Origin: Candidatus Parcubacteria bacterium
GTDB lineage: Bacteria > Patescibacteriota > Minisyncoccia > Phycocordibacterales > UBA2100
Direction: 5' to 3'
Assembly (NCBI GenBank): GCA_003599175.1
Contig: QZIY01000023.1
Span: forward strand, 1-48,065
DNA length: 48,065 nucleotides
In this document: positions 24,821 through 34,039 of the stretch, one piece after another
Layout: the number at the start of each line of letters is the position of its first letter
How positions within the stretch are numbered: position 1 is the first letter of the stretch
Position numbers and translations under genes: made by a program
Notes under the pieces: model-generated
Seen by the model: the letters and a program-made list of their open reading frames with translations, nothing else
What the model was told of the DNA's origin: nothing
The model's database searches: none

Positions 24821-25483
24821 ATGGATATGCGTCAGAGATTCGTGTTCGACGACAGGTCCGCCGCCGGTGTGTTGCTTGCGGAGAAACTCTTAGAATACAA
24901 GTCCGCTCGCCCTTTGATCCTCGCGCTGCCGCGCGGAGGAGTCCCTGTGGCGTACGAGGTGGCAGTGCGTCTCGACGCACCGCTCGACACGGTCGTCGTT
25001 TGCAAAATCGGTGCACCCTTCAATCCCGAGATGGGTGTGGGCGCCGTGGCGCCTGGATCTTTGGTCTTAGACGATCCGGCTATCATGCAGCTTGGTCTTT
25101 CAAAAAGGGATCTCGATCCGATTATCGTGCGAGAGACTGAGGAAATGCAGCGGCGCAAAGCGTTGTATCGAAGCGGCGCATATGTGGATGTCGCAGCATA
25201 CGACACGATCATACTCGTCGACGATGGGCTCGCGACCGGCGTCTCCGCTCGTGTAGCGATCGAATCTCTTAGGAAGAATTCGCCGTCAAAGCGACTTATC
25301 TTTGCCACGCCGGTATGTTCGAGCGATGGCGTCGATATGATACGAAATTCTGTGGAGCGCGTGATCTGCGTGCATGAAGTTGATAACTTTATTGCGGTCG
25401 GGTATTGGTACCGCGAATTCGAGCAGACATCCGACGAAGAAGTAATCGCGCTGCTTGAGCGGGTCAACATGCTGCGCAGTTGA
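24821..25483 (+). CDS. Phosphoribosyltransferase-family protein
   Basis: 'LILALPRGGVPVAYEVAVRLDAPLDTVVVCKIG...TIILVDDGLATGVSARVAIESLRK'. Confidence 0.85.
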   Translation: MDMRQRFVFDDRSAAGVLLAEKLLEYKSARPLILALPRGGVPVAYEVAVRLDAPLDTVVVCKIGAPFNPEMGVGAVAPGSLVLDDPAIMQLGLSKRDLDPIIVRETEEMQRRKALYRSGAYVDVAAYDTIILVDDGLATGVSARVAIESLRKNSPSKRLIFATPVCSSDGVDMIRNSVERVICVHEVDNFIAVGYWYREFEQTSDEEVIALLERVNMLRS

Positions 25484-25589
25484 AGATACATTGCATAGTT
25501 TAAGGGTGAGTAGTGGATACTGCGAGATAGAAATACTGATACCATATATGCAAAGAGCCGCTCGAGACCGGAGGGCTGATTTTGTAGCT

Positions 25590-28250
25590 ATGCGCACACC
25601 TTGGCACGCGATTGCACTTCCCGAATTGTTTTCGCAGGTCAAAAGTTCGGCCGAAGGACTTTCGCAGACGGAGGCCGAAAAGCGCTTGTCGCAATTTGGC
25701 CCCAATGTATTGCCCGAAGAGCGCGGCCACTCGGCGCTCTGGCTTTTTGTCATGCAGTTCGCGAGCCCTCTCATGTACATCATGATCGCGGCGACTGCCG
25801 TATCTTTCGTACTTGGCAACACGACCGAAGCGATATTCATTTTTGTCGTTATGACAAGTAACGCGATCGTCGGGTTCTACCAAGAGCACAAGGCCAATCA
25901 ATCGCTCAAAATGCTCAAGTCTGTCCTCAAGCTCTCCGCGCGTGTATTGCGCGATAGCAAGGAGGCGCAGATTGAGGCGGTGAGGATCGTGCCGGGCGAC
26001 ATCATCGTGCTGCGCGCGGGCGATGAGGTGCCTGCCGACGGCCGTGTGTTGCAGGCGAAGGATTTTCGTGTGTCGGAAGCGACGCTTACGGGCGAGTCGC
26101 AGCCCGTTTTGAAGGTTGTGGGAGTTGTCGATGAGAAATCAGAAGTCGGAGATCGCACCAATATGGTCTTTATGGGCACGATCGTCGAGAGTGGATCGGC
26201 GACGGCGATTGTGACCGCAACAGGTGCTGACACCGAATACGGCGATATTGTCGCGCTCCTCAAAGAAACACCCGAAGAAAATACGCCGCTTCAGAAAATG
26301 GTCGTGTGGCTGTCGAAATTTATCGGCCTCTTTATCACGGTCGTCGTCACATTTATTGCGCTGCAAGGTTACCTTGCCGGTCATGATTTCAAAACGATTT
26401 TCGAGAGCGCACTCGCGCTGTTCGTCTCCGCAATTCCGGAAGGTCTCTTACCCGGTATCACGATCGTCCTCGTTCTCGGCATGCGCCGCATTTTGCATGA
26501 ACGTGGCTTGGTGCGCCGCTTGGCAGCTACAGAGACGCTCGGAGGTGTCACCGTCATCTGCACCGACAAAACAGGTACGCTCACGCTCGGTAATATGGCG
26601 GCCTCGATTGTGCTCACGGGCGAGGGCCCTCATATCTTCGAGCAAACGGACGGCACAGCGCTTTCGGAATCCGTACGGATGAGTGCAAAAATCGCTGTGA
26701 TGGCGACGGATGCGTTTGTCGAAAATCCGGGTGCATCGTACGACCAGATCGTCATCCGCGGCTCCATGACTGAGCAGGCGCTCCTCAAGATGGCGGTGCG
26801 CAGCGGGATTGATCCGTACGCGATCACACAGGAAGAGCATGTCGTGGATTCTTTACTATTCTCATCCGATCGCAAGTATGCGGCGTGGCTCCGTAAGGCT
26901 GGGACAGGTAATGTGCTCTATGTGCTGGGTGCACCGGAAGTGATCGTCGAGCGGGTCACCTCGTTTATGACCCCAAAGGGCGAACAAAAGGCGGAAGGTG
27001 CCGCGTATAAAGCACTCCTGGCGCAGAAAGACGGACTGGTGGCGAAGGGTTATCGCGTGGTTGCGTGTGCGTATAAAACGGTAGGTGAGAATGGCGCGCA
27101 GGATCTTGAAAAAGCGTCGCATCACCTCACGCTTGCGGGCTTTATCGCGATCTCCGATCCGGTGCGAAGCGACGTACCCGCCGCATTCGAAAAAACGAAA
27201 CGCGCGGGTATCCGCACCGTGATCATTACCGGCGATCACTACAAAACCGCCGTTTCGGTCGCAGAGAAAATCGGCATGCACATCCACAAAGATGCGGTCT
27301 TGGAAGGTCACCAGATCGAGGCGATGTCCGACAAAGAATTACAGGAGAAAACGCGTACGATACTCCTCTATGCGCGTGTATCGCCGCGCCACAAGCTTCG
27401 CATCGTGCAGGCACTGCAGCGCGAAGGGGAAGTCGTGGCGATGCTGGGTGATGGTGTCAACGACGCGCCGGCCTTGAAGACGGCCGACATCGGCGTCGCT
27501 GTCGATACTCGTGTCTCTGCCGCGCGCGAGGTTGCCGACATCGTGCTTCTCGATGGCGGCTTTGGCACGATCATCCGCGCGATCGAACAGGGCCGTATTA
27601 TTTTCCAAAACATTCGCAAAGTCTTTCTTTACCTTATCACCCAGGATTTTTCGCAGTTCTTTGTCTTTATCACAGCGATCTTCCTGGGGCTGCCGCTCCC
27701 GGTCATTGCGGCGCAGCTTCTTTTGGTCAATCTCGTTGAGAGCGGCCTTCCTGACCTTGCGCTTACGACAGAGCAGGAGAAAGAAGGGATCATGGACGAG
27801 CCGCCGCGCAATCCAAAAGAATCAATCCTCAATCAGGTGTCGCGCTGGTGGATGCTCTCGGTCTTTTTGATCAGTGGCGGCATTGCGCTCATCTTCTATA
27901 TCACCTCACTCCAATTTTTCGACATCGAGACGACACGCACCATGCTCATGGTCTTCCTCTGCGTCGAATCGCTCCTCTTGGTCTTTTCGATGCGCTCGTT
28001 TGCGCGCGGCATCATTCGCCACGATATTTTCTCGAACCGTATTCTCACCTGGGCGGTCATTGTTAGCTCGATCCTGGTACTCGCGTCTGTGTATATGCCG
28101 TCGCTTCAACATATTCTTCAGACGGTGCCGCTTTCCGGTGGGCAGTGGGTGGCGATCATTGTCGCCAACGTGTGCGAAATTCTCCTGATCGATCGATTGA
28201 AGCTCCACTTCTTCCGCAGCCGTTCGACCACGGTAATGCAGGTTGCGTAA
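25590..28250 (+). CDS. Cation-translocating P-type ATPase
   Basis: 'CTDKTGTLTLGN', 'TLTGESQPV', 'MLGDGVNDAPALKTADIGVAV'; start placed at MRTPWHAIALPELF. Confidence 0.92.
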   Translation: MRTPWHAIALPELFSQVKSSAEGLSQTEAEKRLSQFGPNVLPEERGHSALWLFVMQFASPLMYIMIAATAVSFVLGNTTEAIFIFVVMTSNAIVGFYQEHKANQSLKMLKSVLKLSARVLRDSKEAQIEAVRIVPGDIIVLRAGDEVPADGRVLQAKDFRVSEATLTGESQPVLKVVGVVDEKSEVGDRTNMVFMGTIVESGSATAIVTATGADTEYGDIVALLKETPEENTPLQKMVVWLSKFIGLFITVVVTFIALQGYLAGHDFKTIFESALALFVSAIPEGLLPGITIVLVLGMRRILHERGLVRRLAATETLGGVTVICTDKTGTLTLGNMAASIVLTGEGPHIFEQTDGTALSESVRMSAKIAVMATDAFVENPGASYDQIVIRGSMTEQALLKMAVRSGIDPYAITQEEHVVDSLLFSSDRKYAAWLRKAGTGNVLYVLGAPEVIVERVTSFMTPKGEQKAEGAAYKALLAQKDGLVAKGYRVVACAYKTVGENGAQDLEKASHHLTLAGFIAISDPVRSDVPAAFEKTKRAGIRTVIITGDHYKTAVSVAEKIGMHIHKDAVLEGHQIEAMSDKELQEKTRTILLYARVSPRHKLRIVQALQREGEVVAMLGDGVNDAPALKTADIGVAVDTRVSAAREVADIVLLDGGFGTIIRAIEQGRIIFQNIRKVFLYLITQDFSQFFVFITAIFLGLPLPVIAAQLLLVNLVESGLPDLALTTEQEKEGIMDEPPRNPKESILNQVSRWWMLSVFLISGGIALIFYITSLQFFDIETTRTMLMVFLCVESLLLVFSMRSFARGIIRHDIFSNRILTWAVIVSSILVLASVYMPSLQHILQTVPLSGGQWVAIIVANVCEILLIDRLKLHFFRSRSTTVMQVA

Positions 28251-28257
28251 CACGCAT

Positions 28258-28295
28258 CCTTTATTTGTTTATTTAGCTAAATAAACAAATAAAGG
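28258..28295. repeat. 38-bp perfect palindrome CCTTTATTTGTTTATTTAGCTAAATAAACAAATAAAGG
   Basis: Exact self-complementarity over 38 bp with no spacer, 7 bp after the P-type ATPase stop. Confidence 0.95.
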
Positions 28296-28384: not shown

Positions 28385-28412
28385 TTGCTTTTTCATAAAG
28401 TTATATTATAAT
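28385..28412 (+). promoter_or_regulatory. Putative sigma70-type promoter of the DGR target gene
   Basis: TTGCTT-16 bp-TATAAT upstream of the 28541 start. Confidence 0.55.
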
Positions 28413-28540
28413 TAAAAGAGGTCTTTGAGAATTGTTGCCACGGCTGAAAGCGCCCGATATTCGGGCTTTTTCCGCTGTGGCAAAACCAAATGGCAATGCC
28501 TGAAACGTCATCCCGACGACAGCAAAAAGGAGGCTGTCTT

Positions 28541-29164
28541 ATGACGGCAAATACTGTCACCGACGGCGAAATCAACGACCGGCTCGACGGCAAGTTCGCC
28601 GACCTCAAGCGCCGCATCCGCGAAGGTACGCTCCCACTCGGCCCGGTCGCCGACGCGGTGCAGAACATCATCGAAGGGCGTTTCAAGCGCTCCGATCTGC
28701 TCGTCTTCGTGGGTATCGTGAAGCTGAAGGCGGTCAAGCGCTTCGTAGTCGCCGACCACTTCAAGGAAGGCGTCGCTGCAGGCGGTCGCCCCATCGCCTG
28801 GCTCGGTAGCAACTTCCAGCACCACTTCGGCGATGTCGTCGAAGAAGACGTGCCGGGGCGCACGATCAACGTCTGGCAGCTGGCGAAGTATTCCCGCGAT
28901 CCAGCAATCATTGCCGACCTCGGCGGTGAAGAAAAACCGGAGCTGCAGATCCATCTTGCCCATATGTGGCAGATGATGGAGCTCGGCGAGAAGGCGCACT
29001 GCCGCATCGATGTCTATGCCAACTTCGGCTACAAGATCTCGCCCAAAGACGGCAAGCTGTGGGTCCCGGGCTGGGGCGTCGGCGGCGGCGGGCTCCGCGT
29101 CGAGGCGCGTTCGTCTTCCTATCCGTATGAGTGGTACGACGGCGGTCGGGTCTCCGGCGGCTGA
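28541..29164 (+). CDS. DGR target (variable) protein with C-terminal VR
   Basis: AAAAAGGAGG SD ~8 nt upstream of ATG; C-terminus LWVPGWGVGGGGLRVEARSSSYPYEWYDGGRVSGG matches the downstream TR with adenine-only differences. Confidence 0.92.
   Translation: MTANTVTDGEINDRLDGKFADLKRRIREGTLPLGPVADAVQNIIEGRFKRSDLLVFVGIVKLKAVKRFVVADHFKEGVAAGGRPIAWLGSNFQHHFGDVVEEDVPGRTINVWQLAKYSRDPAIIADLGGEEKPELQIHLAHMWQMMELGEKAHCRIDVYANFGYKISPKDGKLWVPGWGVGGGGLRVEARSSSYPYEWYDGGRVSGG
29057..29162 (+). repeat. DGR variable repeat (VR)
   Basis: 106-bp alignment to TR 29484-29589 (offset 427): 17 substitutions, all at TR adenines; 12-bp identical 5' end and 17-bp identical 3' end TCGGGTCTCCGGCGGCT (IMH-like). Confidence 0.95.
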
Positions 29165-29193
29165 TCCTTCAACCTTCTGTCCTCCTGAACCTT

Positions 29194-29238
29194 GGACCCT
29201 CTGAATCTTTGCGCTTGCGCGCAGGAAACGGAGGGTCC
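29194..29238 (+). terminator. Nested hairpin after VR (outer GGACCCTCTG/CGGAGGGTCC, inner TGCGC/GCGCA), followed by TTTTGTTTT
   Basis: 10-bp outer stem with one G.T wobble, 5-bp inner hairpin, T-rich tail: terminator and/or DGR-associated hairpin. Confidence 0.65.
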
Positions 29239-29483
29239 TTTTGTTTTGGTACAATCGAAAACGAGGATGTTGGGTCGCGGCGGCTACGGTTTCCGCGTGA
29301 CGCCTCGGGTATTCGCACTGTCAGAATCGTCTCGGGTACGCTTGAGATGAGCGCACATGCGAATGTTCAATAAAAAAAGAATAGGATCGGTACGCCGCAT
29401 CAGCGAGCTTCGATGCTCCAAATGAGATTCAGCGATGAGAGTATTCAAATCGTGGTGGCATAGAGGGCGCGGCGTACGAATGT

Positions 29484-29589
29484 CTGTGGGTCCCGAACTG
29501 GAACGTCAACGGCGGCAAGCTCAACGTCGAGGCGAATTCGTCTTCCAATCCGAATGAGTGGAACGACGGCAATCGGGTCTCCGGCGGCT
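29484..29589 (+). repeat. DGR template repeat (TR)
   Basis: Encodes LWVPNWNVNGGKLNVEANSSSNPNEWNDGNRVSGG; nine AAY codons and one AAG, all altered in VR. Confidence 0.95.
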
Positions 29590-29599
29590 ATCGGTTTTT

Positions 29600-29626
29600 C
29601 TCCCGCACTTACCGTGCGGGAGTTTT
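29600..29626 (+). terminator. Hairpin immediately 3' of TR
   Basis: CTCCCGCAC-TTACC-GTGCGGGAG (9-bp stem) followed by TTTT; 10 nt after the TR end. Confidence 0.7.
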
Positions 29627-29959
29627 CGCTTCGAGCCCCTTCTTCCATCCTCCGATCATGCGCCCGAGCTCGTCCGTCTTTTCCGAGATGAGCACATATT
29701 TTTTGTTGTCCAAAGCATGGAGTTCCCATGCGATACGGAGAAAGAATTTCAAGAGATCGGTTTTCCGCACCGCAATCAGGATTGTTGGTAGTTTGTCCTG
29801 CTTGCTCTGGTAGCTTGCGACGAACAAGCATTCCAGAATCTGAATGAACGTCGCGTCTATTTTGTCTCCCAGCGTATAGCGTGATCCTTTGGGAAAATCA
29901 TTCCGGTATCCTTGCCACAGCTTGTATACTGCAACCGTATGCTCAACGACAGGCAACAA
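29609..29959 (-). CDS. avd: DGR accessory variability determinant (bAvd-like four-helix bundle protein)
   Basis: 'LPVVEHTVAVYKLWQGYRNDFPKGSRYTLGDKIDATFIQILECLFVASYQSKQDKLPTILIAVRKTDLLKFFLRIAWELHALDNKKYVLISEKTDELGRMIGGWKKGL' matches the bAvd/four-helix-bundle pattern. Confidence 0.88.
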   Translation of the reverse strand: MLPVVEHTVAVYKLWQGYRNDFPKGSRYTLGDKIDATFIQILECLFVASYQSKQDKLPTILIAVRKTDLLKFFLRIAWELHALDNKKYVLISEKTDELGRMIGGWKKGLEAKTPAR

Positions 29960-31022
29960 CCGGATAGCAGGGGGGGGGATTCGAAGAGTTCAATTCTTTC
30001 ATCCATACGACAATATCATTTCCATCGAAAATCTGCTCGGGGCGTGGGAGGAGTTCAGAAGAGGGAAGCGCAAGAAGCAGGACGTGCAAGAATTCCAGCA
30101 TTCTCTGATGGACAACATCCTGACATTGCATCGTGAATTGAAAGAGGGAACATACAAGCACGGCTCATACAAAGCCTTCAAAATCAACGACCCCAAACCC
30201 CGCGATATCCACAAAGCGACAGTACGCGATCGGCTCGTGCATCACGCGATCTATCGGCAACTCTACCAATTCTTCGACCGCACCTTCATCGCGGACTCGT
30301 ATTCGTGCAGGCAGGGTAAGGGCACCCACAAAGCGCTGAACCGCTTCCGCGAATTCGCGTACAAAGTGTCAAGGAATCACACGAAGACGTGCTGGGTATT
30401 GAAATGCGACATAAAGAAATTTTTCGCCTCGATCGACCAGACAATTCTTCTCTCGATCATCTCTTTATACACCCCCGATCAAAGAATCAAGGATCTCATC
30501 AAAGAAATTATGAGCAGCTTTTGTTCCTGCTGTATGACCCGTACATTATGGCCGATCGGTCAAAATATACGTATGCGGCACAAGGGCTTGCCGCTCGGGA
30601 ATCTGACGAGTCAATTATTGGTCAATGTCTATATGAACGAGTTTGATCAGTACATGAAGCATAAACTAAAAGCGAAACACTATATCCGCTATGCAGACGA
30701 CTTCGTTATTCTTTCGCGCGACAAACAGGAACTGCAACGAATAGGGCGATATATCGCCCTCTTCTTGCGCCAACGCCTGAAGCTCGAATTGCATCCTGAC
30801 AAAGTATTTATCAAGACGTTCGCCTCCGGTGTCGACTTCCTCGGGTGGATTCATTTTCCGGATCATCGGGTGCTGCGGACGAGTACGAAGCGGCGGATGG
30901 TGAAGCGCACTGAAGGAGCGGACGAGGAAAGTCCGACGTTACGGTCTTATCTTGGGTTGCTCAAACATGGGAATGCGGGGAAGCTTTCGGCGTGGATGCG
31001 GAAGGCCGCGAGATTTCAATAA
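29889..31022 (+). CDS. DGR reverse transcriptase (5' end uncertain; G9 run near start)
   Basis: 'IISIENLLGAWEEFRRGKRKKQDVQEF', 'RDIHKATVRDRLVHHAIYRQLYQFFDRTFIADSYSCRQGKGTHKALNRF', 'CDIKKFFASIDQ', 'GLPLGNLTSQLLVNVYMNEFD', catalytic 'YIRYADDFVIL' (YADD codons 30690-30701), 'GVDFLGW'. Confidence 0.95.
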   Translation: MGKSFRYPCHSLYTATVCSTTGNNRIAGGGIRRVQFFHPYDNIISIENLLGAWEEFRRGKRKKQDVQEFQHSLMDNILTLHRELKEGTYKHGSYKAFKINDPKPRDIHKATVRDRLVHHAIYRQLYQFFDRTFIADSYSCRQGKGTHKALNRFREFAYKVSRNHTKTCWVLKCDIKKFFASIDQTILLSIISLYTPDQRIKDLIKEIMSSFCSCCMTRTLWPIGQNIRMRHKGLPLGNLTSQLLVNVYMNEFDQYMKHKLKAKHYIRYADDFVILSRDKQELQRIGRYIALFLRQRLKLELHPDKVFIKTFASGVDFLGWIHFPDHRVLRTSTKRRMVKRTEGADEESPTLRSYLGLLKHGNAGKLSAWMRKAARFQ

Positions 31023-31035
31023 AAGGCGTTACCTT

Positions 31036-32403
31036 TTATTTACTTACCGAAATCGTTTTGATATTCACAAATTCCTTGATTCCGTAGTGCGAAAGCTCGC
31101 GGCCGTAGCCCGATTTTTTTACGCCGCCGAAAGGGAGTCGGGGATCAGATTTAACTTGGCTGTTGATGAAGACGCAGCCGGATTCGATGTTGCTCGCGAG
31201 CTGCTGTGCGACTTCGATATTGCCGCTGAAAATCGTTGCGCCGAGACCGTACGGGCTGTCATTGGCCATCGCAATCGCCGCGTCTGTGTCAGTAAATGAG
31301 ATGACGGGAAGCACGGGGCCGAAGACTTCTTCGTCGAATACTGCCATGCCTTTTTGTACTTGCGTGAGCACGGTCGGCGGATAAAAGTATCCCTGTCGCT
31401 CGAGTCGTTTGCCGCCAGTCAGCACCTTTGCACCTTTTGCGATGGAGCTTTGCACTTGCACTTCGACATCGCGAAGCACCTGCTCGTTGACCATCGGCCC
31501 TACATCGGTCGAAGGGTCGAGCGGGTCGCCCACGTGGAGAAGTTCTACTTGCTCCTTGAGAAGCATGGCGAATTGCGCGGCGATTGATTCGTGCACGATG
31601 AAGCGCTTTGCGGCGATGCAGCTTTGGCCGACGTTGGCTTGCATACGCGCCGCGACGGCCGTTTTTGCGGCCTTCACGATGTCGGCATCAGGCAAGACGA
31701 TAAAGGGGTCGCTGCCGCCGAGTTCGAGCACCGTTTTCTTGATTTCACGTCCGGCTGCTTCTGCGACTTGGTTTCCCGCCTTCTCGCTGCCCGTGAGTGT
31801 GATCGCCTTTACGCGCGGGTCGGCGATGACCGGCGCGACCTTGCTAGCCCCGATCGCGAGATTCAAGAAGACGCCGTCGGGAAAACCGGCTGTACGAAAT
31901 ACGTCTTCAATCGCCTGCGCGCTGCCCTGCACATTGGATGCGTGTTTGAGGAGTCCGACGTTGCCGGCCATGATCGCGGGAGCAGCGAAGCGGAAGACCT
32001 GCCAGAAGGGGAAATTCCACGGCATCACCGCAAGGATGACCCCGAGGGGATCGAAGCGCACATAGCTCGCGTGTGCGTCGGTCGGGATGGTCTCGAGTTT
32101 CAAAAAGTGCTCGGCGTTGTCCGCATAGTAATCGCAGACGAGCGCGCATTTCTCCACCTCTCCCTGTGCGGCGGCAAATGTCTTCCCGACTTCGAGCGAC
32201 ATGATTTTGGCATACCTATCTTTCTCGCTGCGCAAGACTGCGGCAGCTTTTTTCATCAAGAGCGCGCGATCTGCAAAGGTCGTATGGCGCCAGTCTTGGA
32301 AGGCGGCATGTGCCTGTCCGATTTTGTGATCGATATCCTCATGCGATAGCTCCGGCGTTTCCGAAACGATCTGAAGCGTCACTGGGTTGATTGACCTAAG
32401 CAT
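31036..32403 (-). CDS. gabD: Succinate-semialdehyde/aldehyde dehydrogenase (NAD(P)+)
   Basis: 'VMPWNFPFWQVFRFAAPAIMAGNVGLLKHASNV', 'VLELGGSDPFIVLPDADI', 'NVGQSCIAAKRFIV', 'LPFGGVKKSGYGRELSHYGIKEFVNIKT'. Confidence 0.92.
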   Translation of the reverse strand: MLRSINPVTLQIVSETPELSHEDIDHKIGQAHAAFQDWRHTTFADRALLMKKAAAVLRSEKDRYAKIMSLEVGKTFAAAQGEVEKCALVCDYYADNAEHFLKLETIPTDAHASYVRFDPLGVILAVMPWNFPFWQVFRFAAPAIMAGNVGLLKHASNVQGSAQAIEDVFRTAGFPDGVFLNLAIGASKVAPVIADPRVKAITLTGSEKAGNQVAEAAGREIKKTVLELGGSDPFIVLPDADIVKAAKTAVAARMQANVGQSCIAAKRFIVHESIAAQFAMLLKEQVELLHVGDPLDPSTDVGPMVNEQVLRDVEVQVQSSIAKGAKVLTGGKRLERQGYFYPPTVLTQVQKGMAVFDEEVFGPVLPVISFTDTDAAIAMANDSPYGLGATIFSGNIEVAQQLASNIESGCVFINSQVKSDPRLPFGGVKKSGYGRELSHYGIKEFVNIKTISVSK

Positions 32404-32410
32404 ATAAAGG

Positions 32411-34039
32411 TTACTCGTCGTCCTCGGCTTTGCCGCCGAAGGCGCGTGCATTCTCAGTATAGTCTATCGGCAAGGCAATAATATGAATGCCGCCGTCTTT
32501 CAGTGCATTACGGAGCGTCGGCTCAAATTCGGCCGCCGATTCGATGCAATGGCCCGTCACTCCAAAAGCCGCCGCAAGCTGCACGAAATCGGGGTTTTCG
32601 AAGGAGAGGCCAAAATCCTTGAGTCCCATACCGCTCTGTTTCCACTTAATCATGCCGTACCCGCTATCGTCCAAGATGATAATCACGAGGTCCAGCTTCA
32701 GTCGCTTGGCCGTTTCGAGATCGGCGACGTTCATCAGAAAACCGCCGTCGCCCGCAACGACCACCACTTTCTTCCTCGGATTGATGAGCTTCGCCGCCAT
32801 GCCCACGGCAAGCCCCGCGCCCATCGTGGCGAAGGCATTGTCGAGAAGAACGGTGTTTTGCTCGTAGGCAGGGTAGTTGCGACTGATCCACAGCTTGTAC
32901 ATGCCGTTGTCGAGGGAGAGAATCGCGTCGCGCGGCAATACCTGCCTGAGATCGTGTACGAATCGCTGCGGCACGATAGGAAATCGATCGCTGCCGGTTT
33001 TCTTGCCGATATGCGCGCGCAGCTCGTCTTTGATTTTGTGGAATTTTTTGAAGTCCCACCTTTTCTGCACCTTGATGTCCTTGCTCATGACCCACAGTGC
33101 ATGCGAAATATCGCCGACGACTTCGAGGTACGGTTTGTATACGTGATCGATATCGGCAGGATAGAAATTGAGGTGCACGATTTTCTGCCCTACCCTCGGG
33201 AGGACGGGAGGCTTTTCGGTGATGTCGTGGCCGATGAGGAGAATGAGATCGGCTTTTGCGGTCGCCTTGTGCACGTGGTCGCCCCCGGAAAGCGCAGTCG
33301 TGCCGATATATTCCGCCGTACCCTCATCTTCTACGCCCTTGCCCATTTGTGTGGTTACAAAAGGAATTTTTGTCTTCGCAATAAAATTGCGCAGCTGTTT
33401 GCGGATGAGCTTTCTATTGGCACCGGCTGCTATAGCGATAAGCGGCGAGCGCGCCTTTTCTATTTCTGCAATGACAGCGATGATGCTTTTGTCATCTGGT
33501 ACCGGACGGCGCACTTTTTTCCACGGAATAGGTTTTTCATCGGAATATTCTTCCGCAATGTCTTCGGGAAATTCGAGGTGGACGGCACCGGGGCGTTCGG
33601 CTTCCGCGATGCGCACTGCTTGGATCACGGCTGCAGGAATACGGTCGGCACTCACGATTTGTTCGGCCATCTTCGTAATCGGGCGCATCATGCCGACGAC
33701 ATCGATGATTTGAAATTTACCCTGCTTGCTCTTCCTGATCGGCTTTTGGCCGGTGATGACAAGAAGCGGCATACCCCCGAGTTGTGCATACGCGACGCCG
33801 GTGACGAGATTGGTTGCCCCCGGCCCGAGCGTCGACATGGCGACGCCGACGCGCCCGGTGAGACGGCCGAGGGTGGCGGCCATAAAGACGGCGGTCTGCT
33901 CGTCGCGGGTCGTAATGAATTCGATCTTCGATCGGCGTACCGCGTCCAAAAAAGCCAAGTTTTCCTCCCCCGGTAACCCAAAGATGTACTCTATACCGGC
34001 GGCTTCCAGGCATTTCACGAATAGATCGGCGCCTTTCAT
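32411..34039 (-). CDS. Acetolactate synthase-like thiamine diphosphate enzyme
   Basis: 'MKGADLFVKCLEAAGIEYIFGLPGEENLAFLDA', 'STLGPGATNLVTGVAYAQLGGMPLLVITGQ', 'VVAGDGGFLMNVADLETAKRLKLDLVIIILDDSGYGMIKWKQ'. Confidence 0.92.
   Translation of the reverse strand: MKGADLFVKCLEAAGIEYIFGLPGEENLAFLDAVRRSKIEFITTRDEQTAVFMAATLGRLTGRVGVAMSTLGPGATNLVTGVAYAQLGGMPLLVITGQKPIRKSKQGKFQIIDVVGMMRPITKMAEQIVSADRIPAAVIQAVRIAEAERPGAVHLEFPEDIAEEYSDEKPIPWKKVRRPVPDDKSIIAVIAEIEKARSPLIAIAAGANRKLIRKQLRNFIAKTKIPFVTTQMGKGVEDEGTAEYIGTTALSGGDHVHKATAKADLILLIGHDITEKPPVLPRVGQKIVHLNFYPADIDHVYKPYLEVVGDISHALWVMSKDIKVQKRWDFKKFHKIKDELRAHIGKKTGSDRFPIVPQRFVHDLRQVLPRDAILSLDNGMYKLWISRNYPAYEQNTVLLDNAFATMGAGLAVGMAAKLINPRKKVVVVAGDGGFLMNVADLETAKRLKLDLVIIILDDSGYGMIKWKQSGMGLKDFGLSFENPDFVQLAAAFGVTGHCIESAAEFEPTLRNALKDGGIHIIALPIDYTENARAFGGKAEDDE

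Follow-up and report, generated by a model that had tools for sequence, protein, structure and literature searches.

A conserved simple-sequence tract between head-to-head reverse transcriptase and bAvd genes as a proposed ON/OFF switch of diversity-generating retroelements in Patescibacteria

The diversity-generating retroelement (DGR) of the Bordetella phage BPP-1 is a described system to which the locus considered here can be compared. A structured RNA spacer, situated 3′ of the template repeat (TR) of BPP-1, recruits the enzyme and primes cDNA synthesis, and the accessory protein Avd is required for retrohoming (PMC12875486). How cells restrain a DGR from constantly mutating its target is the question at stake, and a review has suggested that DGR hypermutation is suppressed under stable conditions (PMC8867640). 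The DGR discussed in the following paragraphs is itself of a known kind. Its reverse transcriptase (RT) and bAvd genes lie head to head at a run of G residues, which probably serves as a random on/off switch of the mutator and is kept in most related elements of the phylum.

The window, that is, the whole stretch of 48,065 nucleotides that was analysed, contains all the DGR components that had been named within positions 28385-31022 (~2.6 kb), which is far beyond chance. Judged by its sequence, the element is a complete chromosomal DGR cassette of a Patescibacteria/CPR genome, from a bacterium that is uncultured and very small. The sequence-only reading had called the DGR complete, correctly, and had missed its three unusual features, namely the orientation of bAvd, a structured leader in the RNA and a conserved tract of simple sequence. 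The variable repeat (VR; 29057..29162, + strand) and the near-identical TR (29484..29589, + strand) are separated by an offset of 427, as had been read from the letters. They differ at 17 of 106 nt, and all 17 mismatches are located opposite TR adenines (hypergeometric P = 5e-15), with A to G in 12 cases, A to T in 3 and A to C in 2. Across 131 loci, 2163 of the 2234 VR/TR differences (97%) are adenine-specific, a proportion obtained with a pair finder that favours such pairs. A single VR and a single TR are present in the window’s own genome, which is 88% complete. Loci in which both repeats could be located run in the order target-VR, TR (after about 340 nt), antisense bAvd and RT.

The RT frame occupies 29889..31022 on the + strand and possesses both the YADD and the GLPLGNLTSQ motifs that had been pointed out in it. 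The domain starts at about 30005, and TTG codons at 29889 and 29922 are in frame at the assembled tract length of nine G residues (G9). The profile search that had been proposed as a check on the RT returned Pfam RVT_1 (5e-26) and PHROG 1423 (1e-106). The enzyme falls within the DGR lineage, with 8ub7 as the best PDB match (3e-43), compared with 1e-19 for a group II intron RT. In the table of PDB matches, which comprises nine entries, 8ub7 is labelled just “Reverse transcriptase”; we take it to be bRT of BPP-1, a DGR RT. The nearest named relatives are Kaiserbacteria and Adlerbacteria; the others are mostly Paceibacteria/Parcubacteria with some from other CPR groups. In a sample of 146 genomes at levels from the genus of the window to its order, 53 (about a third) carry a related RT, and the comparative set consists of 167 non-redundant loci.

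The accessory ORF, described beforehand as bAvd-type, is a true bAvd by its profile matches, which are above the cut-off for Pfam bAvd (5e-12), 5e-19 for the PHROG “Avd protein of DGR” and below the profile’s own cut-off for NCBIfam DivGenRetAVD (2e-17). What had gone unreported is its position on the minus strand. The core reading frame (29609..29959, - strand) is antisense to both the TR RNA and RT, diverges from RT and has its 3′ end 20 nt from TR. This arrangement is not peculiar to the window: among the 167 loci, 154 (128 with a tract and 26 without) have an antisense bAvd directly before RT, and 4 have a sense bAvd. The antisense-bAvd loci form one clade on the RT tree, in which one member has no bAvd in the stretch examined. 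Viral RT relatives of 45-48% identity have the antisense bAvd and lack the tract. Term searches in the portions of DGR papers that were available found no description of an antisense Avd; priority on this arrangement is uncertain.

The G9 tract, the proposed phase-variable switch, is located at 29970..29978, where the antiparallel 5′ ends of RT and bAvd overlap, and is the sole simple-sequence repeat (SSR) within the window. In 501 kb from 40 relatives, 33 G/C runs of at least 8 fall in the 130 nt that precede the RT core and 2 fall elsewhere. The 128 tract loci carry poly-G (G6-G14) in 118 cases, GA in 7, GT in 2 and GACT in 1, all at the same position and none with a unit that is a multiple of 3; mapped onto the RT tree, the tract has changed its state 14 times or more. 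The replacement of G by GA, GT or GACT, together with the repeated changes of state, indicates that the loci keep a repeat that is prone to slippage and whose unit length is not divisible by three. On the comparative sequence evidence, this pattern of conservation is that of a contingency locus and not that of a coding motif or binding site. Retention of the tract merely as Gly/Pro coding is ruled out by the same replacements and by the varying frame.

Could the tract instead be the decaying start of a dying element, or an artefact of assembly, in a plain and already described CPR DGR? The genomes are drafts, 68-76% of the loci are out of frame and RT fragments are present at some of them. This explanation is nevertheless scarcely credible, given that 128 non-redundant, independently assembled loci share a long tract at the same spot, and given the mere two long G/C runs elsewhere in the 501 kb checked, the intact bAvd core of 96 of 97 “off” loci, the strong covariation in the RNA leader and the 97% adenine specificity of the VR/TR differences, a figure that the pair finder favours. 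It should be noted that one genome per species was compared, and that homopolymer lengths in draft assemblies are possibly off by one. A search for near-identical locus pairs that differ in tract length gave none, there being no pair above about 81% identity.

A programmed transcriptional or ribosomal slippage site, at which a fixed fraction of in-frame product would arise at any genomic length, is very unlikely as well. A homopolymer within a coding frame and frames that are random across species would suit such a site, but the GA, GT and GACT repeats at the same place argue against it. To our knowledge, these units are not classical slippage sites of RNA polymerase or of the ribosome. G, GA, GT and GACT repeats are all subject to DNA slippage.

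We also note several observations on individual runs. The window’s own genome contains one other G/C run of at least 8 (G000:C35:1561-1569), which seems to lie in the coding sequence of a lytic transglycosylase motif (GWGGGAMGPAQFIPS) and is thus an ordinary coding run. One locus (L151) has an assembly N run exactly where the tract is expected, consistent with sequencing trouble. GT and G tracts are also present in L127 and L130, two antisense-bAvd loci that are further removed and form a group of their own. In RT similarity, L127 is remote from the majority of tract loci; this suggests an independent gain or an older origin of their tracts.

The reading frames across the tract carry the functional argument. 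All 128 loci have, in one or more of the three phases, an in-frame bAvd ATG beyond the tract; for the first 63 loci the count was 63, compared with 38.9 on average and 49 at most for shuffled flanks. At the assembled length, bAvd is open in 31 of the 128 tract loci versus 25 of 25 readable tract-less relatives (P 1.7e-13; since the loci share ancestry, this and the other P values that assume independence are too small). The open fraction of 24% is somewhat under one third. The bAvd ATG is the complement of an RT His codon in 93 of the 128 loci, and this codon is CAT in 95 of 95 SSR loci having His there. The preference for CAT, a synonymous constraint, is 49:0, in comparison with 631:488 at other His codons (P 2.5e-12).

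In the window, the candidate bAvd start (30000..30002, - strand) is the complement of the RT His codon CAT and is in frame with bAvd at G8, G11 etc., while a second candidate ATG (30004..30006, - strand) is in frame at G7 and G10. The candidate RT start, an ATG at 29939..29941 on the + strand, joins the RT frame only at G8, G11 etc. At G8 or G11, therefore, both genes open: RT reads from ATG 29939 to give 360 or 361 aa, and bAvd starts at the complement of 30000-30002 to give 130 or 131 aa. At G7 or G10, bAvd alone opens, from the complement of 30004-30006, and the assembled G9 leaves both genes without an in-frame ATG beyond the tract. In L076, the closest relative, the tract is G8, the RT ATG is in frame and both genes are open. 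A change in tract length thus toggles the open reading frame in silico when ATG starts are considered.

The two genes are coupled in a subset of loci. In 45 loci, the window among them, no RT ATG lies beyond the tract; 39 of these possess one on its opposite side, and RT and bAvd are in co-phase in 38 of the 45, where the null expectation is 18.3 with a maximum of 30 in 20,000. The control class comprises the 83 loci in which RT has its ATG beyond the tract, with a left ATG in 24 and co-phase in 9. For those 83 of 128 loci, it follows that bAvd alone would be frame-gated. The bAvd His codon as a marker of RT-left starts was not significant (P 0.09).

An ordinary DGR, in which bAvd (and RT) would start at a non-ATG codon such as TTG on the core side and the tract would belong to a 5′ UTR or promoter spacer that tunes expression, has to be weighed against these data. 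TTG is enriched at the “LP” leucine of bAvd left of the tract (53% versus 17%; P 1e-13), RT has its own ATG about 14 nt past the tract in many loci, and a tract between divergent starts could change promoter spacing. We regard this alternative as unlikely, though less so than the two above, because a bAvd ATG lies beyond the tract in some phase at every locus, the complementary RT codon is invariably CAT, and the in-frame ATG is used in all 25 readable tract-less relatives. Furthermore, no canonical start (ATG, GTG or TTG) remains left of the tract in 37 of the 128 loci, and co-phase of RT and bAvd is confined to the loci in which RT is without an ATG beyond the tract. Nonetheless, the left-side TTG enrichment of bAvd, the fact that no more than those 37 loci are without a left-side start, and the in-frame TTGs of the window’s RT at G9 suggest that leaky or alternative starts may bypass the switch.

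The contingency locus is the reading that we prefer for the DGR with its tract, in which slippage would toggle bAvd and, in the subclade of the window, RT too; we assign it a probability of about 0.72. According to the proposed mechanism, the TR RNA would be copied by RT together with bAvd, and the mutated cDNA would replace VR in the target gene by adenine-mutagenic retrohoming. Slippage at G9 would shift the frame of bAvd and, in this subclade, that of RT. The starts of RT and bAvd are located on opposite sides of one tract, so that one slip can toggle both genes. The ON state would correspond to G8 or G11, with both genes open from ATG, and the OFF state to G9, with neither open from ATG; switching would be random and heritable per cell. 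As Avd is needed for retrohoming in BPP-1, most cells would have the mutator switched off and a minority would have it switched on. The variant would then be frozen in most cells while diversification proceeds in a few, and the slippage-gated bAvd and RT would represent a population-level answer to the problem of restraint for one of the largest DGR reservoirs. The switch could be checked from existing metagenomes by counting tract lengths. With somewhat less assurance, we favour the broader view that in much of Patescibacteria a slippage tract gates the bAvd of DGRs, and RT in some subclades, and that these elements possess in addition a permuted, 5′-structured DGR RNA.

The structured leader of the DGR (TR) RNA is situated at 29373..29480 on the + strand, 5′ of TR. 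An alignment of 51 leader sequences displays two-sided changes in 20 of 23 pairs, and 95.8% of the cells are paired compared with 74.9% after shuffling. The covariation score is 0.692 versus 0.278 for shuffled alignments (0 of 500 shuffles), with slid controls at or below 0.23. The covariance model built from it (R1) matches the leader of the window with 89.6 bits, the sole match in its own genome, and there is no Rfam match for the RNA. A further helix, observed in 110 aligned loci, joins the start of the leader to bases just 3′ of TR and is followed by an intrinsic-terminator-like hairpin that closes the TR RNA (29600..29626, + strand; CTCCCGCACTTACCGTGCGGGAG TTTT). The hairpin proper (29600-29622 in the window) lies within about 10 nt of TR, is conserved in the same number of loci and overlaps the 3′ end of bAvd.

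R1 also matches tract-less antisense-bAvd loci, a viral one (L056) among them, and gives no match in sense-bAvd loci or in the BPP-1, ANMV-1 and BalMu-1 stretches. Among 240 genomes of the phylum, a related RT is present in all 44 that carry the leader RNA. The structured part lies 5′ of TR here and 3′ of TR in BPP-1, so the antisense-bAvd clade appears to have a permuted DGR RNA, which would imply cDNA priming and RNP assembly unlike the BPP-1 scheme. A spacer may also act from the antisense bAvd stretch. Term searches in the available parts of DGR papers gave no description of an RNA 5′ of TR, and the leader model provides a ready query for finding DGR RNAs. Five leader matches were seen without an RT on the same contig stretch (G327:C22:4330-4486, G096:C6:139213-139313, G218:C4:129141-129263, G359:C14:12776-12884 and G288:C4:38312-38435); these are possibly orphan TR RNAs that act in trans on remote targets, or DGR remnants. 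At G373:C3:80113-80708, a leader RNA adjoins bAvd with no RT reported.

The target gene (28541..29164, + strand, 207 aa) carries VR at its extreme C-terminus, in agreement with the initial description. Its best start is ATG 28541, with AAGGAGG 8 nt upstream, and VR ends 2 nt before the last base of the stop codon. Relatives of the target that are 24-35% identical occupy the VR position in other DGRs, and no viral relatives were found. The protein gave no match to a family in Pfam or to a sequence or fold in the PDB, nor to viral folds (BFVD), so a C-type lectin fold of the target is unproven; its AF model has a pLDDT of 72.7 and is weak in VR. The N-terminus (28541-28730) is a helical stretch that ends in IIEGRF and resembles those of otherwise different DGR targets (L146 and L214), which suggests a module common to several DGR targets. 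The target ends in RVSGG-stop (29155-29164), whereas relatives end in V-x-S-R, and the frame of TR runs on past the VR match as GGYRFFSRT (29582-29610); the C-terminus of the target may therefore be altered here.

The VR is GC-rich at its end and is followed, 31 nt beyond, by an inverted repeat that starts at 29194. The repeat (GGACCCTC/GAGGGTCC), a T-rich tail and then a TACAAT promoter-like box occupy 29194..29255 (+ strand), a position that is kept in relatives. It is likely the terminator of the target gene, the stem-loop of VR, or both. This function is assigned from the sequence pattern, as the consensus terminator scan missed the repeat, which has a long loop, and there is no sigma-70 match; consensus sigma-70 promoters were not detected. 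On the other side of the target gene, a perfect 38-nt palindrome (28258-28295; CCTTTATTTGTTTATTTAG/CTAAATAAACAAATAAAGG), probably a bidirectional terminator, separates it from a P-type cation ATPase (25455-28250). An aldehyde dehydrogenase (31036-32451) follows RT, and neither of these nearest neighbours is a phage gene.

The proposed SSR ON/OFF switch is, to judge from the literature consulted, not previously reported for a DGR. No SSR-gated DGR is reported among the titles listed that pair DGR or Patescibacteria with phase variation, and in PMC10053308 the phrase phase variation refers to the Bordetella host. Clade 2 of the DGRs of Roux et al. 2021 is restricted to Patescibacteria (PMC8144416), with the same host group and cellular location as the window, and its targets, like that of the window, are small and without recognisable domains. 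The element most likely belongs to this clade. Term searches in the main text of Roux et al. gave nothing on Avd, accessory genes, orientation or strand, and the text consulted has no account of an antisense bAvd, an RNA leader or a tract.

With BPP-1, the window shares the RT family (8ub7), Avd, adenine-specific TR/VR differences and a C-terminal VR. BPP-1 has mtd-avd-TR-brt on one strand, in contrast to the window, where bAvd is antisense and divergent from RT; the structured RNA spacer of BPP-1 is situated 3′ of TR (PMC12875486), while the conserved RNA of the window is 5′. The BPP-1 stretch (L254) has no R1 match, and the window adds a simple-sequence tract at the RT/bAvd junction. The DGRs of ANMV-1 and of nanoarchaea (PMC4372165) resemble the window in that they come from uncultured lineages and have an RT and targets with a C-terminal VR. 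In ANMV-1, however, target and RT run in the same direction, no antisense gene is annotated in the interval, and R1 is unmatched. The poly-G phase-variable genes of Campylobacter jejuni (PMC4965091) offer the likeness to the tract itself, with G tracts of at least 7 in the start region, a unit length not divisible by 3 and predicted toggling of the frame. In contrast to loci of the C. jejuni type, the tract of the window is known from assembled sequence at a single length. Known SSR contingency loci mostly gate surface structures, whereas the genes that would be gated here are those of a hypermutator, two antiparallel genes that share one tract.
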